This document shows, piece after piece, positions 13,668 to 22,019 of a DNA stretch of 64,000 nucleotides. Under the pieces are notes generated by a model. That model saw nothing but the letters and a program-made list of their open reading frames with translations. It was not told the origin of the DNA and made no database searches. Source of the stretch: Ammonifex degensii KC4 (GTDB lineage Bacteria; Bacillota; Desulfotomaculia; Desulfotomaculales; Ammonificaceae); contig NC_013385.1 of NCBI RefSeq assembly GCF_000024605.1, forward strand, positions 62,001 to 126,000, read 5' to 3'. The position numbers were made by a program, and so were the translations under genes. Numbering within the stretch: position 1 is the stretch's first letter; each line of letters opens with the position of its first letter.

Positions 13668-16600
13668 GTGGTGGTAATGCGACGCTGTGGCCGGTACCTG
13701 GCTTGGCTTTTTCTCTTATTTTTGCTCTTGGCCCTGCTCGGAGGAGACAAGCTCTCCACCTCTTCAAGATCTCCTGGGACCAAACAGGAAACGGTGGTCT
13801 GCAAGAGGGTGGACAGGCCGGAAGAAAAACTTTCTCCCGAGCTTAAGGAACCCGGAACCGGGCCCAAGCAAGTTACCGTCCTTTTGCGGGATGCCGGTTC
13901 TAAAGAGCGCCTGGCTTCCTGGGTAAAGGAAAAAGGAGGCCGGGTGCTGCGGGGAACCGAGGGAACAGGTACCGCTCTGGAGGTAGTTCTGCCGGCGGAA
14001 GTGCTTTCCGCCTTGGCCTCTGACCCGGCGGTGGAGTGGGTGGAGCCTACCTACGAGCGCCGCTTTCTCTCCGACCGGGCGGCCGAAGTGATAGCCAGCG
14101 CCCCCTTGCGAGTCCCAGGCTTTGTGCTGCCCGAAGGGCTCGACGGTAAGGGGGAAGTGGTGGGGATAGCTGACAACGGCCTGGACAAGGGAGATATAAA
14201 CGACCTGCCTCCTACTTTCAGAGGGAAGGTCCAGCTCTTGCGTTCCTGGGGAGGAGGGGGCTTAGCTGATCCCACAGGTCACGGGACGCAGCTGGCAGGA
14301 ATCGTGGCCGGAAGCGGGGAGCGCTTCCCGGGGATCGCCCCCGGAGCTTACATCTACTTCCAGGCAATAGCGGGGCCGGACGGCAAAACTCCTAATCCTC
14401 CTGCCGACCTGGGCGACCTTTTCGCTCCTGCCTATGCGGCGGGGGTGCGGGTGGAACTCTGCGGCTGGGGAGGCGGGGAGGCCCGCTACGGGGCGGCCGC
14501 CTTCCAGATAGATCGCTTCTGTTACCAGCATCCTGACTTCCTGCCCGTGTTTGCGGCGGGCAACGGAGGTCCAGCTCCCGGCAGCCTTACGGCCGAAGCC
14601 TGCGCCAAGAATGCCTTGGTGGTAGGGGCTACGGAAAACCCCCGCCCCCTCTTTGGTACTTACGACCCCACCAAGGTGGCCGATATTTCCAGCCGGGGGC
14701 CGACCCAGGACGGCCGCTTGAAGCCCGATCTGGTGGTGCCGGGCATGGGTATTGTCGGTCCGTGTTCCCGCCTGGTCACCTCTAACCTGCCGGGCAACCC
14801 CCTTTACCTCCGCGGCGACGGGACCAGCCAGGCGGCGGCGGTAGCCGCAGGCGGAGCGTTGCTGGTGCGGGAGTACTTAGAGCAGACGGGCTACCATTCT
14901 CCTCCGGCGGCTCTCATTAAGGCCCTCTTGATCAACGGGGCGCAGTGGCTTAGCAACAAACCCAACAACGCCACGGGCTACGGCCTGCTGGACGTGGGAG
15001 GAACGGTGTTGGCCCTGAAGGAAGGAACTTTCCGCTGGGCCGCGCCGGCTAGAGGTATCTCAAACGGTGAGAAGGTTACCTTCTGGTTCTCGGTTACCGA
15101 TCCGACTCGGCCCCTAAAGGTAACCCTTTGCTGGACCGACCCTCCGGCCTCGCTGGGTTCGGGAGAGGTTCTGGTGAACGACCTCGACCTGGTGGTTTAC
15201 GGGCCGGGAGGGCAGCGCTTTTGCGGCAACGATTTTGAGAACAGAGGCCTGCCCGATCGCCGCAACAATGTGGAGCAGGTGGTCATTCCCCAGCCACTTC
15301 CCGGGACTTACCGGATAGAGGTAACTGCTCGGCGCACGGTCTCCCCCCAGACTTTCGCTCTGGTGTACGGCCAGCCTTTGGCTCACGGGGTGGTCAAGTC
15401 GATGGAGGGGGACAAGCTTCTCCTTACCGACGGCCGGGTGCTTATACCGACCAAGGTGCGGGAAGTGGTGAACGGGAAGCTGGTATCCTCCCCCAGTTTT
15501 CTCCCGGGGACCGACGTATATTACCTTCCTGATGGCACGGTCTACGCCGTGGTGGAGGAGAAGGTGCTGGCTCCGGCCCGCTTTTTCTCCCTGGCCAAAG
15601 GGGCAGTGGTGGGATCGGAAACGCCGGCCTTGCAGGACGGCGGCTACCTCCTGGCAGAGGAGTCGGTGGAAGCGCAGGGGAAACCGGCTTCTCCCCGGGA
15701 CTTGCCTCCCGGCGTTCGGGCCAGCTTCACCGTGAACCCCCGCACCCAGGAAGCTTGGGGAGTAAAGGTTTCCTGGCGGGAGGAGGAGGGGTTCCTCCTC
15801 TCCTTCAACGCAACGGAAGTAACCCTTATGGACCGAGGGACTTTTCCTCTGGCTTCCGGTTTTGTGGTGACCCAGAAGTCCCAAGAGGAGGAGCTTTATC
15901 CTTTTGATCGGCTCTTCGGTGTTCCACCCACCCCTAATCTCCTTCCCGGCTTGAAAGTCCTTCTCCGGCTTGATACCCAGACCGGCGAGGTTTTGCACCT
16001 GGAGGTCAGGCAGCGCGTAGTCTCCGGCTATCTGCGGTCGATTTCCGGGCAAGAAGTAACCCTTGCCGACGGCCGCGCTTTCCAGCTCTTCCCCGGGTTA
16101 GCTTGGCCAAGCCACCTGACTCCTGGGCAGCGCGTCGTGGGGGTGCTTGCGCCAGATAAACCGGAGCTTTTGCAGCTGCGGGCCGAGCCGGCCCTCTACG
16201 GCCGCGTGATCTTGGTGGAAGGAAGAAGAGTCTATTTTCAGGACCAACTAAGCGAGGTTCGCTTTTGGGAGCTTGCTCCGGAGGCCGACTTTTACCGGGA
16301 CGGGGTGCAAGTGGGTCCGGTGGCGGCCTTGCCGGGTACCTTTGCCCGACTGCTGTTGGACGAGCAGGGAAGGGTGAAGCGGGTGGACCTTCTCCGAGGG
16401 GAGACCTTGTCCTTTGAGGGCCAGATAGAGGCAGTGAGGGAAAGTAGCTTCTGGGTAGGTGGCCAAAGTTTCAGGGTGAGCGAAGGAACCATGATCCTGA
16501 AAAACGGTCAACCGGTTTTGCTTTCCGACCTTCGGTCCGGCGAGGAAGTGAGGGTGGTAGCAGCCACGTTAGATGGGCACTATTGGGCACTTATGGTAAG

Positions 16601-17348
16601 TGCCTCCACTTCCGAGCCTCCTCCCCGCCTCTGGGTGAGGAATACTGGAGAAAGGCAGTGGGAAGGGTTCACCTCGGCACGGCGCCTTTACCTGATCGAC
16701 GGAGAGAAGCGGGTGCAGATAACGCCGGACGAAAGGGGGTATTTCTCCTTGGCAGCTCCGCCGACGGCCCGGCTGGTAGCGGTGAACGGTGGGGTGAAGG
16801 GCTCGCGGTTGGGTGAAGCGGCCGACTTTACTCCTTTCCGGGACCTCAAGGGGCACTGGGCCCGAGGAGATGTTGCTGCCCTCTGGGCCGTAGGAATTTT
16901 GGGCGGTTACGGAGACGGCACTTTCCGGCCCGATAAGCCCATCACCAGGGTGGAGATGGCGGCCTTACTTTCCCGCTTCTACGCCTTGCCCCCTGCGCAG
17001 GATATTCCCTTGCCTTTGGATGTGCCTGCCTGGGCGGGTGAAGCAGTGAGAGCGGCGCTGGCGGCCGGTTACTTCGGCCTTTACCCCGACGGAAAATTCC
17101 ATCCTTCAGAACCCATTACCCGTGCCGAGGCGGCGCTCATGCTGGCCAGAGGGGTGGAGATAAAAGAAGCTCCTCTTCCCTCCTACCGCGACTGGGAAGA
17201 GGTACCTCCGGAAGCAAAAGCGGCCGTGGCTTACTTCACGGCCGCAGGGATCTGTCGAGGAAGGGAAGATGGCTTTTTTGCTCCCGCTGCCTACCTCACC
17301 CGCGCGGAGGCGGCAGTTCTCTTGTACCGGCTACGCTTCCTGCATTAG
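13668..17348 (+). CDS. Secreted S8 (subtilisin-like) serine protease with three SLH domains
   Basis: A 1,226-residue secreted protein. Basic residues and a hydrophobic stretch (LAWLFLLFLLLALLGG) form a signal peptide; a prodomain-like region follows. The subtilase catalytic residues are Asp169 (GIADNGLD), His205 (PTGHGTQLAG) and Ser387 (GDGTSQAAA). A jelly-roll P-domain-like part follows (about residues 460-570), then ~450 residues of beta-rich repeats that I cannot assign. Three S-layer homology domains end the protein (about residues 1057-1100, 1110-1160 and 1170-1222; FRDLKGHWARGDV, GYGDGTFRPDKPITRVEMA). It is thus a wall-anchored surface protease; the SLH domains need pyruvylated wall polymer (see csaB). 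Start GTG 13668 or ATG 13677. Its 3' end overlaps the convergent gene by 18 bases. Confidence 0.88.
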   Translation: MVVMRRCGRYLAWLFLLFLLLALLGGDKLSTSSRSPGTKQETVVCKRVDRPEEKLSPELKEPGTGPKQVTVLLRDAGSKERLASWVKEKGGRVLRGTEGTGTALEVVLPAEVLSALASDPAVEWVEPTYERRFLSDRAAEVIASAPLRVPGFVLPEGLDGKGEVVGIADNGLDKGDINDLPPTFRGKVQLLRSWGGGGLADPTGHGTQLAGIVAGSGERFPGIAPGAYIYFQAIAGPDGKTPNPPADLGDLFAPAYAAGVRVELCGWGGGEARYGAAAFQIDRFCYQHPDFLPVFAAGNGGPAPGSLTAEACAKNALVVGATENPRPLFGTYDPTKVADISSRGPTQDGRLKPDLVVPGMGIVGPCSRLVTSNLPGNPLYLRGDGTSQAAAVAAGGALLVREYLEQTGYHSPPAALIKALLINGAQWLSNKPNNATGYGLLDVGGTVLALKEGTFRWAAPARGISNGEKVTFWFSVTDPTRPLKVTLCWTDPPASLGSGEVLVNDLDLVVYGPGGQRFCGNDFENRGLPDRRNNVEQVVIPQPLPGTYRIEVTARRTVSPQTFALVYGQPLAHGVVKSMEGDKLLLTDGRVLIPTKVREVVNGKLVSSPSFLPGTDVYYLPDGTVYAVVEEKVLAPARFFSLAKGAVVGSETPALQDGGYLLAEESVEAQGKPASPRDLPPGVRASFTVNPRTQEAWGVKVSWREEEGFLLSFNATEVTLMDRGTFPLASGFVVTQKSQEEELYPFDRLFGVPPTPNLLPGLKVLLRLDTQTGEVLHLEVRQRVVSGYLRSISGQEVTLADGRAFQLFPGLAWPSHLTPGQRVVGVLAPDKPELLQLRAEPALYGRVILVEGRRVYFQDQLSEVRFWELAPEADFYRDGVQVGPVAALPGTFARLLLDEQGRVKRVDLLRGETLSFEGQIEAVRESSFWVGGQSFRVSEGTMILKNGQPVLLSDLRSGEEVRVVAATLDGHYWALMVSASTSEPPPRLWVRNTGERQWEGFTSARRLYLIDGEKRVQITPDERGYFSLAAPPTARLVAVNGGVKGSRLGEAADFTPFRDLKGHWARGDVAALWAVGILGGYGDGTFRPDKPITRVEMAALLSRFYALPPAQDIPLPLDVPAWAGEAVRAALAAGYFGLYPDGKFHPSEPITRAEAALMLARGVEIKEAPLPSYRDWEEVPPEAKAAVAYFTAAGICRGREDGFFAPAAYLTRAEAAVLLYRLRFLH

Positions 17349-19027: not shown

Positions 19028-19786
19028 TTGGCGAACTTCTCCCCTGAGAGGGGGAAGATCGAGCCTGTGGCGGCGATTTTGGTCATTGTTCCCGCCTACA
19101 ACGAGGAAGCCACGGTGGCCCGAGTGGTGGAGGAAGTAAAAACTTTTTTTCCTGAGGCGGAAGTTCTGGTGGTAGACGACGGCTCAGAGGATGCCACGGC
19201 GGAGGAGGCGCTGCGGGCGGGGGCTAAAGTGCTGCGTCTCCCCTTCAACGTGGGAGTGGGAGGAGCGGTGCAAGCCGGCTACCTCTACGCCCAGCGGTGC
19301 GGCTACCGGATAGCGGTGCAGATGGACGGCGATGGGCAGCACAATGCCGCTGACCTGCCTGCCCTTTTGGCTCCCTTACTGGCAGGCGAGGCCGATATGG
19401 TGGTGGGTTCGCGCTTTCTGAATCCCCACTCTTACCGTTCTACCCCGGCGCGGCGGTTGGGCATCGTTCTTCTCCGGAATTTGATTTCTTGGCTTTCCCG
19501 CCAGCGCTTCACCGACCCCACCTCAGGCTTCCGGGCAGTAGGGCCGGAGCTCATCCGCTTCTTCGCCCGGCATTACCCTTACGAATATCCGGAAGCAGAA
19601 AGTTTGCTTCTGGCCAAGCGGCAGGGCTTCCGGCTGCGGGAGGTGCCGGTGACCATGCGCCCGCGACAGGGAGGAGTCTCTTCCCTCAGCGGCTGGCGCT
19701 CTTTTTACTTCATGGCCAAGGTGCTCCTGGCGGTGGGCATTACCGCTTTGCGGCGAAGGGAAAGGGTGGAAGCTGATGGCAAATAG
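19028..19786 (+). CDS. Family 2 glycosyltransferase (dolichol-phosphate-mannose-synthase-like)
   Basis: A 252-residue GT-A fold enzyme. It has VIVPAYNEEATVARVVEEV, the nucleotide-binding VVDDGSEDAT, the metal-binding QMDGDGQHNAADLP (DXD) and GSRFL. It resembles enzymes that charge a polyprenyl phosphate with a sugar. It lacks C-terminal membrane helices, which may be supplied by the DUF2304 protein encoded next with an 11-base overlap. TTG start after gggaaaaggagcgg. First gene of a five-gene overlapping operon that ends with an ArnT-like transferase. Sugar unknown. Confidence 0.87.
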   Translation: MANFSPERGKIEPVAAILVIVPAYNEEATVARVVEEVKTFFPEAEVLVVDDGSEDATAEEALRAGAKVLRLPFNVGVGGAVQAGYLYAQRCGYRIAVQMDGDGQHNAADLPALLAPLLAGEADMVVGSRFLNPHSYRSTPARRLGIVLLRNLISWLSRQRFTDPTSGFRAVGPELIRFFARHYPYEYPEAESLLLAKRQGFRLREVPVTMRPRQGGVSSLSGWRSFYFMAKVLLAVGITALRRRERVEADGK

Positions 19787-20150
19787 CGGTCCGGTCTACT
19801 ACCTCACCTTTTTTCTGGGCCTAGGCTTAGGGTTGGTGGTGCTAGAATTGGTGCGCCGGCGCTGGCTGAGAGAACGCTACGCCTTGCTCTGGCTTCTTAC
19901 CGGACTTTCCCTCATGCTCTTCTCCTGGAAGCGCTCTCTGGTAGAAGGGCTGGCGCGCACTTTAGGCATTTACTATGCTCCCTCGGCTTTGTTTCTCCTA
20001 GGCTTCTTTTTCCTCTTACTGCTGAACCTACAGTACGCGGTGGCTCTATCCCGACAAAGCGAGATGGTGGTGCGGCTGGCGCAGGAGGTGGCCCTTCTGC
20101 GCCAGGAAATTCTGGAGCTTAGGGCCGAAGGTAGGCGGGGGAAAGAATGA
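19776..20150 (+). CDS. DUF2304 membrane protein
   Basis: A 124-residue protein with three hydrophobic helices, the family-typical middle WLLTGLSLMLFSWKRSLVEGLARTLGIYYAPSALF-like pattern, and a C-terminal charged coiled coil (QSEMVVRLAQEVALLRQEILELRAE). DUF2304 proteins commonly sit next to GT2 genes as here and are thought to act with them at the membrane. It overlaps GT2 by 11 bases and shares an ATGA overlap with the next gene. Confidence 0.83.
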   Translation: MANSGPVYYLTFFLGLGLGLVVLELVRRRWLRERYALLWLLTGLSLMLFSWKRSLVEGLARTLGIYYAPSALFLLGFFFLLLLNLQYAVALSRQSEMVVRLAQEVALLRQEILELRAEGRRGKE

Positions 20151-20485
20151 GGGTTTACCTCTTTGGGGACCTGCCGGCGCGGCCGGACTACCGTCCCGGC
20201 TGACCGCCTCCGGGCAAGTCGGCCGAGCTGGTGCTCGGCTATCACCTTCTGCGCCAGGCGCTAAAGAAGCGCTTTGGTGAAAAGGTAGTTCTTGTCTATC
20301 AGGAGATACACCGTCCCGGGCCTTGGGCGGAGGCCGCCACTTTAGCCCAGCGTATCGTGGTGGAGGGGCTCCCTTTACCGGTGGTGGCGGTAGGGGAGGA
20401 AATAGTGGCGACGGGGAGCCTGCCCCGACCCGAAAAGCTGGTGGCCCGGGTGGAGAAAGCGCTGGCGGGAGGGAAAAAACTTTGA
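20147..20485 (+). CDS. Thioredoxin-fold-like protein with in-frame TGA (candidate selenoprotein, or broken gene)
   Basis: Reading from the ATG at 20147, which overlaps the DUF2304 stop as ATGA and follows gcggggga, gives MRVYLFGDLPARPDYRPG, then TGA at 20201-20203, then PPPGKSAELVLGYHLLRQ and an open frame to 20485. Read through, the product is 112 residues with a beta-alpha-beta pattern like small thioredoxin/glutaredoxin-fold proteins, with position 19 just before the first long helix, where such proteins carry a redox Cys. There is no Cys elsewhere. 19 bases after the TGA a perfect 7-bp stem (20222-20228 with 20233-20239) closes a UGGU loop, matching the bacterial SECIS pattern. The 3' end overlaps the next gene. 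Alternatives are a nonsense mutation, a sequencing error, or a shorter protein from GTG 20231. Confidence 0.6.
20201..20239 (+). promoter_or_regulatory. Putative bacterial SECIS element (UGA plus downstream hairpin)
   Basis: The UGA at 20201-20203 is followed by stem GCCGAGC (20222-20228), four-base loop UGGU (20229-20232) and stem GCTCGGC (20233-20239), extendable by a G-U pair. The loop starts 25 bases after the UGA and has G at its second position. The published bacterial consensus asks for roughly 16-37 bases and a G in the first two loop positions. The structure lies inside the coding sequence, as expected in bacteria. Confidence 0.5.
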
Positions 20486-20820
20486 CCCTTAAGGATTTTC
20501 TGCTGATTCTGCTCAACGCTTGCCTTCTGGTTACAGGGCAGATTTTTTGGAAGACCGGAATACAAGAGAGCGGGCTTAATTGGGTTAAGCTTTTGTTGGA
20601 TGTCAGAGTATGGGCTGGGTTTCTTGCTTTTGCCTTGGCTACCCTGATTTGGTTTCAGGTGCTGGCCAAGGTGCCGCTCTCGCGTGCTCTTCCTGTCCAG
20701 AGCGTGGCTTACGTACTGGGCGTGCTGGCTGGCTGCCTTTTCTTTCACGAGTCTGTTTCTTGGGAGAGATGGCTGGGGGTGGCTTTTATCATAGGCGGGA
20801 TCTGCCTGGTGGCGCGATGA
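20482..20820 (+). CDS. Small DMT/EmrE-family membrane protein (ArnE/ArnF-like)
   Basis: A 112-residue protein with four hydrophobic helices and the EmrE-like pattern (LLNACLLVTGQIFWKTGI, AKVPLSRALPVQSVAYVLGVLAGCLFFHE, WLGVAFIIGGICLVAR). In a glycosylation operon ending with an ArnT-like transferase, it is more likely a polyprenyl-phosphate-sugar flippase subunit (ArnE/ArnF type) than a drug pump. The TTG at 20482 was chosen because gcgggagggaaaaaac precedes it and it overlaps the previous stop. Its own end overlaps the next ATG (ATGA). Confidence 0.78.
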   Translation: MTLKDFLLILLNACLLVTGQIFWKTGIQESGLNWVKLLLDVRVWAGFLAFALATLIWFQVLAKVPLSRALPVQSVAYVLGVLAGCLFFHESVSWERWLGVAFIIGGICLVAR

Positions 20821-22019
20821 GGGGAAAAGCCGGGATCCTTTTAATCCTCTTTTTGGCCCTGGTGGTACGGCTAGTCTTCGTTCATCACTGGGGAAGTACC
20901 CTCACCCTTAATAGTGACGACGTGGGCTACATCAACTCGGCCAAGGTGTGGCTGGAGAAAGGTATCTTCACTTATGTTCGGCCGGCGCTGACCCTATCAC
21001 CTGAAGAGATCCAGCCCTCAGCCTACATCACCCCCGGTTACCCCCTTTTCCTGGCCTTTTTCCTTAAGCTGGCCCCGGAAAGTCGCGCTTTGGCCCTGGC
21101 CCGCTACGCCCAGGTCTTTTTGTCGGTGGCCAGTGTTTTTCTCGTTTACCGCCTGGGGAGCAGGTGGGGGAAGGGGGAACTGGCGGCTGCTTTGGCCGCC
21201 CTGTACCCTCCCTTTATTCTCCTGAGTGGGCTGCTTCTCACCGAGACTTTATTTACCTTCCTGCTCCTGCTCTTCCTGGATCGGTGGCTTGAGGTGAGGG
21301 AGAACCTTTTCCAGTGGTTTTCGCTGGGGCTTATCGGGGGCCTGGCCACTCTGGTGCGCCCCACAGGGGTGGTGCTGGTCGGCCTGGCATTGGGGGGCTT
21401 GGCTTGGGAGATCTGGCGGAGAAAGCGACTTTTCAAGGCTTTTTTGCTGTGTCTTTTGGGCTTTTGTTTGGTTCTTTCCCCCTGGTGGGTGCGTAACTAC
21501 CTCACCTTTCACCGCTTCATTTTCCTCTCCACCGGGGGAGGAAATCCTTTGCTTTTGGGGACCTACGTGGAGCTGGAGGGGATAGAGCGCGGCTGGAACC
21601 CTTATTGGCCGGTGGGGCGCACGCCGGACGAGACGAGTGCTTTGCAGCAGGCTTACGCCTTGAAGCGCCTCAAGGAGGGCTTTAGCCGCCAGCCCAAGCG
21701 CTACCTTTACTGGTACACCTGGGGAAAGTTTAAGCTTCTGTGGGGCAAGGTCTTCCTCTGGGGCGGGGAGGACAAGCTACCCCAAACTTTCACTTTGTGG
21801 TTCCATTACGCTCTTCTACTGCTAGGGGGAACGGGGCTTCTCCTTCTGCTTTTCCGGAAAGCGGAAGGCGGCGGCAAGGTTTTGGCCCTGCTCGCCGCCT
21901 TCACCTTGGTACACCTGATTACTTGCGCTTATTGCCGCTATGCCCTTCCCCTTTTGCCGGTGCTGGCTGCTTGTGCTGCCGCCTGGTGGCCCTCTCCTAG
22001 AGCTTCGCCAACTCGGTAG
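20817..22019 (+). CDS. ArnT/PMT-like (GT-C) glycosyltransferase
   Basis: A 400-residue membrane protein with about 10 hydrophobic helices. The first extracytoplasmic loop contains the acidic region typical of GT-C enzymes (TLNSDDVGYINSAKVWLEKG) and is followed by TPGYPLFLAFFLKL. Such enzymes transfer a sugar from a polyprenyl-phosphate donor to protein or lipid on the outer face of the membrane. It starts with ATG at 20817, overlapping the stop of the ArnE-like gene. It is the likely terminal enzyme of the pathway begun by the GT2 enzyme. Its 3' end overlaps a convergent gene by 23 bases. Acceptor unknown. Confidence 0.82.
   Translation: MRGKAGILLILFLALVVRLVFVHHWGSTLTLNSDDVGYINSAKVWLEKGIFTYVRPALTLSPEEIQPSAYITPGYPLFLAFFLKLAPESRALALARYAQVFLSVASVFLVYRLGSRWGKGELAAALAALYPPFILLSGLLLTETLFTFLLLLFLDRWLEVRENLFQWFSLGLIGGLATLVRPTGVVLVGLALGGLAWEIWRRKRLFKAFLLCLLGFCLVLSPWWVRNYLTFHRFIFLSTGGGNPLLLGTYVELEGIERGWNPYWPVGRTPDETSALQQAYALKRLKEGFSRQPKRYLYWYTWGKFKLLWGKVFLWGGEDKLPQTFTLWFHYALLLLGGTGLLLLLFRKAEGGGKVLALLAAFTLVHLITCAYCRYALPLLPVLAACAAAWWPSPRASPTR

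Follow-up and report, generated by a model that had tools for sequence, protein, structure and literature searches.

The locus analysed here raises the question of whether a UGA codon inside an otherwise open gene of Ammonifex degensii KC4 is read as selenocysteine (Sec), as a first-pass annotation had proposed, and, if so, what kind of protein results. The window, that is, the whole stretch of 64,000 nucleotides under analysis, carries the candidate gene on its forward strand at 20147–20485 (112 codons plus stop). The best explanation as a whole, to which we assign a probability of about 0.9, is a cytoplasmic 112-residue selenoprotein with a thioredoxin fold of the DUF1462/YuzD superfamily, in which Sec19 would serve as the nucleophile.

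The reading frame and the selenocysteine machinery

The frame runs from ATG 20147 to the TGA at 20483–20485, and its sole interruption is the TGA at 20201–20203, which occupies codon 19 and is the putative Sec codon. There is no Cys codon among the 112. Upstream, on the same strand, lie the genes for a family 2 glycosyltransferase (19028–19786; PF00535, 1.6e-23) and for a DUF2304 membrane protein (19776–20150; PF10066, 1.1e-21), the latter overlapping the Sec gene by ATGA. Downstream, the stop of the Sec gene overlaps, by TTGA, an in-frame TTG at 20482, the probable start of a gene for a small EamA/SMR-like membrane protein, possibly ArnE-like (20482–20820, forward strand); the PF00892 match (3e-9) was obtained on the longer ORF 20323–20820. 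This gene in turn shares an ATGA overlap with a forward-strand ORF (20817–22019) for a hydrophobic glycosyltransferase that looks PMT/ArnT-like by eye, with start and family assigned provisionally. The first-pass annotation had given this frame, its lack of cysteine and its overlaps at both ends with exact coordinates. Elsewhere in the window, 13668–17348 encodes a secreted protein of 1226 aa that, by eye, resembles a subtilisin-type protease whose C-terminal part has S-layer-homology-like repeats.

The genome contains all four genes needed for Sec incorporation. Family searches returned selA (641.9 bits), selB (386.9 bits) and selD (391.4 bits), and tRNA-Sec (selC), with anticodon tca, was detected with RF01852 at 76.6 bits. 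The selD gene (G000:C1:301304-302227, L074) itself carries one in-frame TGA and represents the Sec-containing form. A hairpin comparable to that of the Sec gene, CGGGCC-loop-GGCCCG, has its loop at +17 nt from this TGA and serves as an internal positive control from this genome.

The hairpin and the conserved UGA

The SECIS-like hairpin GGCCGAGC-UGGU-GCUCGGCU (20221–20240, forward strand) was evaluated by folding, synonymous controls, frozen codons and covariation. Its stem-loop, GCCGAGC-UGGU-GCUCGGC at 20222–20239, has a 7-bp stem that begins 19 bases past the TGA and a UGGU loop that begins after 25 intervening nucleotides, with G at loop position 2. Applying the bacterial SECIS rules (loop 16–37 nt downstream, G in the first two loop bases), we confirmed the fit that had been claimed for it. 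Folding of 20201–20245 gave -23.7 kcal/mol (z -3.7), and none of 200 shuffles was as good; compared with synonymous recoding of the same peptide, the hairpin stood out with P=0.002. An Rfam scan of the Sec-gene region returned chance matches only.

Homologues were then sought at increasing taxonomic distance. Within the taxonomic family, searched with the single query sequence, seven of eight genomes have the gene, and every copy contains one in-frame TGA and no more. The class search, with a profile of 19 sequences against 113 genomes (E<=7.2e-10, about 7e-10), resulted in 31 homologues from 30 genomes, or roughly a quarter of the sampled class (30/113), and 30 of the 31 had exactly one in-frame TGA. 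Across the class, the TGA keeps its site, where the first-pass annotation had suggested looking for TGA or Cys. The remaining homologue, the first of a tandem pair in G076, has Ser at the Sec site and no stop; that the lone stop-free close homologue has Ser rather than Cys was counted against the main reading. No Cys form at the Sec position was found in this close class family of 31 homologues. The tandem copies (G076:C128:7017-7798; L076, L037), the second of which keeps the UGA, are a natural Sec loss after duplication. A scan of genome contigs with the query matched only Ammonifex thiophilus, whose protein is 89% identical; a phage search gave no homologue, and the lone match of a plasmid search by tblastn was a weak one to a Priestia YuzD.

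We aligned 29 members, with 19–90% identity to the query; the G020 copy, at a contig edge, is absent from this set. The only invariant columns were Sec19 and Pro78 (codon 20378–20380, forward strand), and a thioredoxin-fold enzyme is expected to keep positions equivalent to these two. Protein-level conservation extended across the UGA in species at 45–50% identity. Most close relatives have U-x4-C (RPGUPPxGC) and one sub-group has C-U, whereas the Ammonifex form has Sec only.

A bSECIS-type hairpin was present in 29 of 29 members, with the loop starting at +17 to +30. The 30 TGA-containing homologues all retain the UGA at one aligned position, so that its occurrence exceeds chance. Together, the hairpins of the 29 members beat synonymous-codon controls with a Fisher P of 1.9e-9, and those of 15 less redundant members with 7e-6; the member sequences are related, so that these values overstate independence. 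The hairpins of G037 and G006 were weak, and those of G004 and G071 were not above their controls (P 0.9 and 0.67), which was counted against the main reading. Among the 13 relatives that align gap-free past the UGA, six of the seven stem pairs showed compensatory double changes and 86.8% of cells were paired. The covariation score was 0.595 against a shuffle mean of 0.254 (0/500 shuffles reached it), with slid-partner versions at or below 0.194, and RNAalifold independently recovered the same stem. When the two Ammonifex species were compared, all 14 codons that follow the UGA and span the hairpin were unchanged (14/14); of the next 78 codons, 28 had changed (19 synonymous and 9 replacement).

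If the UGA were an ordinary stop, the gene would be either decayed or restarted at GTG 20231 to give an 84-aa protein. The standard code does yield an ORF at 20231–20485, and overlapping genes could permit reinitiation. However, an invariant UGA column, protein conservation across it at 45–50% identity, frozen hairpin codons and covarying pairs all argue against this explanation, and decay would bring further stops or frameshifts; we regard it as very improbable. Readthrough of the UGA to Trp or another residue is less credible still, to the point of being negligible. The frame is open past the UGA, which is the single point in favor of such recoding, whereas the full Sec machinery, the SECIS covariation and the Cys of relatives at equivalent active-site positions speak against it, and nothing points to Trp.

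Hairpin stability, covariation and frozen codons together constitute the strongest evidence, and on these sequence grounds the decoding of UGA-19 as Sec appears near certain. The presence of the SECIS hairpin within the coding frame, 18–37 nt past the UGA, would allow Sec-tRNA (selC) bound by SelB to decode it. The selenoprotein reading of the first-pass annotation is supported by four features established at the level of sequence, namely UGA conservation, covariation of the SECIS stem, the Sec machinery and the fold relationship.

Fold, superfamily and probable activity

In an AlphaFold2 model of the protein (mean pLDDT 92.6), the secondary-structure elements are arranged beta-alpha-beta-alpha-beta-beta-alpha, as in a thioredoxin fold. 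Sec19, modelled as Cys, is in the loop preceding helix 27–46, and Pro78, at the cis-Pro position adjoining strand 3, comes just before strand 79–82. Model confidence is lowest in the Sec loop (pLDDT 83–87). The top PDB match of Foldseek was 1xg8, a DUF1462 protein of S. aureus (probability 1.00, TM about 0.6), followed by ArsD and thioredoxins, with a best E-value of only 1.2e-3. Both the thioredoxin fold and the placement of the TGA before the first long helix, as anticipated in the first-pass annotation, were borne out by the model, the fold by Foldseek as well. In Pfam, the best model was DUF1462 (PF07315), at E 5e-5 and 23.9 bits against a gathering threshold of 25, so that the cut-off was not reached; PF07315 matched 7 of the 29 members at E<=0.1.

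The relationship to DUF1462 was extended through outer relatives in the phylum, some of which are above the PF07315 cut-off. They align with YuzD over the full length, CxxC included, and an hhalign comparison of the close family with them gave E 8e-20 (a single comparison), with Sec19 placed on their first active-site Cys. DUF1462/YuzD (PF07315; 1xg8) has length and fold in common with the query and is its best Pfam model, but YuzD has CxxC and no Sec, whereas the query contains a single Sec without any Cys and falls below the Pfam cut-off. SelW-like, Grx, Trx and UXX-star selenoproteins also have a thioredoxin fold with Sec in its active-site loop. Their motifs are UxxC or CxxU, in contrast to the GUPP / U-x4-C of the query family, which did not match their NCBIfam models.

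According to the model, Sec19 would occupy the active-site position in the loop before helix 1, facing the cis-Pro-78 loop. Its selenolate would most likely attack, as a nucleophile, disulfides or other electrophilic sulfur or selenium, and to judge from the sequences the protein most likely acts by thiol/selenol exchange on its thioredoxin fold. In most relatives, the partner of Sec would be a Cys that either follows it at a distance of five residues (U-x4-C) or directly precedes it (C-U). Since the Ammonifex form lacks Cys, resolution of its Sec would fall to an external thiol or to a partner protein. The absence of Cys is unusual for a dithiol enzyme and was counted against the main reading; Sec insertion itself, the nucleophile role and the external resolving thiol are what we infer from the evidence above.

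The biochemical role would be that of a Sec-nucleophile redox protein or of an ArsD-like metalloid carrier. The second possibility, in which the selenoprotein would carry metal(loid)s through selenol/thiol ligands, as the arsenic metallochaperone ArsD does, and would not be a redox enzyme, is the main rival because ArsD (PF06953) was the second-best fold match and its spacing agrees: the U-x4-C and C-U of the relatives copy that of CC-x4-C in fetched ArsD sequences, the C-x4-C part equalling the U-x4-C of most relatives. ArsD shares the thioredoxin fold, the C-terminal half of the query aligns with it (hhalign 93%), and the A1 search matched an ArsD-type protein in the order. Additionally, several CU-motif selenoproteins in the 2026 catalogue are tied to metals (PMC13188914). 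On the other hand, the hhalign match stops short of the Sec loop, and the DUF1462 profile fits better than ArsD. The conserved CC-x4-C ligand set of ArsD is absent, the Ammonifex form offering Sec19 as its single possible ligand and the relatives U-x4-C or C-U. Nor was the ars-operon location expected of an ArsD seen, as no ars genes adjoined the family among the representative neighbours read. We therefore consider the carrier role unlikely, though the least unlikely of the alternatives, and retain the Sec-nucleophile redox protein as the preferred reading.

Searching the phylum with a profile of the outer relatives, we obtained matches in 83 of 398 genomes, about a fifth of the sample, with dozens of in-frame TGA members in this wider DUF1462-like group. 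Many outer relatives are apparent selenoproteins with C-x4-U, CxxU, CGU or GGUSC motifs and strong hairpins. Cys was found at the aligned active site in other outer relatives, and because these have it at the same sites, Sec/Cys exchange becomes visible: GGUSC (L149, L152, L156, L158) is replaced by GGCSC (L048, L065, L153) at one site. The odds appear about even that this superfamily is a major uncatalogued home of Sec in the phylum, in which two active-site positions can each carry Sec (U-x4-C, C-x4-U, CxxU, GGUSC) and Sec and Cys have been exchanged repeatedly. The Ammonifex protein would then be a single-selenol member that contains no Cys and whose mechanism differs from that of the usual dithiol pair. 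Two outer matches have an in-frame TAG, which was rejected as another recoding, one being the gene end and the other lying off the active site.

A second set of DUF1462-like apparent selenoproteins was also observed, comprising L046 (1501–1830, reverse strand), L052, L057, L060, L062, L064, L066, L067, L047, L050 and L051. They carry C-x4-U, CxxU and CGU motifs, and most have SECIS-type hairpins, that of L046 with a perfect 14-bp stem. No NCBIfam selenoprotein model matched this set above its cut-off.

Genomic context and catalogue status

The names of neighbouring genes were read by eye from the sequences. In both Ammonifex species, the gene is joined by ATGA/TTGA overlaps to DUF2304, EamA/SMR and glycosyltransferase genes, which could suggest a selenoprotein that serves this glycosylation operon specifically, for instance by placing the synthesis or flipping of polyprenyl-phosphate sugars under redox control. 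The setting noted by the first-pass annotation holds in these two species; in other genomes, the gene is elsewhere. Three other genomes of the taxonomic family (L099, L100, L101) have an HtpX-like protease gene upstream and a convergent Hsp20 gene downstream, and hsp20 was nearby downstream in nine genomes overall. In family f9, an hdr/sdh-like cluster lies downstream, and part of f7 has hydrogenase-type genes upstream. Clustering of gene neighbours revealed no partner kept across the whole set; the glycan-operon context is thus local and gives no clue to the function of the family. With the operon link not common to the family, a dedicated role in glycosylation is improbable. That no operon partner is conserved outside the genus was also counted against the main reading, a selenoprotein of the DUF1462/YuzD superfamily.

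UGA-Sec genes are truncated or skipped by annotation pipelines, and finders that work by homology often need Cys homologues. In our reading, the Sec family is a selenoprotein family that is new and uncatalogued, although its kind is known; an unnamed deposited record may exist. When the 29 members were scanned against NCBIfam release 20, the lone selenoprotein match was TsoC in one member, with a chance-level E of 0.093. The 2026 catalogue of 119 prokaryotic selenoprotein families and subfamilies (PMC13188914) has none under PF07315, DUF1462 or YuzD in the portion consulted. Similarly, the consulted text of an earlier survey of 25 families (PMC1794560) and that of the nine new deep-Sep families (PMC12013277) contain no description of the Sec family.

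The Sec family would add to the known selenoproteome of these anaerobes. A DUF family of unknown function gains a clear active-site residue to test, and the Ammonifex protein offers a natural Cys-free selenol protein for single-selenol chemistry.

Two catalogued families were rejected as the identity of the Sec family. NF041239 (CC/Se motif selenoprotein, Moorella) is likewise a small selenoprotein from the same order; however, in the genomes concerned its matches are at loci other than that of the Sec family, and the model had zero matches in the Ammonifex genome. TsoC (NEPxGxxU, NF045708) is a small selenoprotein with a motif loosely similar to that of the query family, and its weak matches in the order are at different loci, below the cut-off. 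Among these sub-threshold TsoC-like matches, L160 (G020:C136:2366-2602) and L159 contain an in-frame TGA, and the match in G020 lies ~1.6 kb from the G020 copy of the Sec family. Six matches to the NF041239 CC/Se motif were found in a single genome (G038), with TGA in some and not in others.
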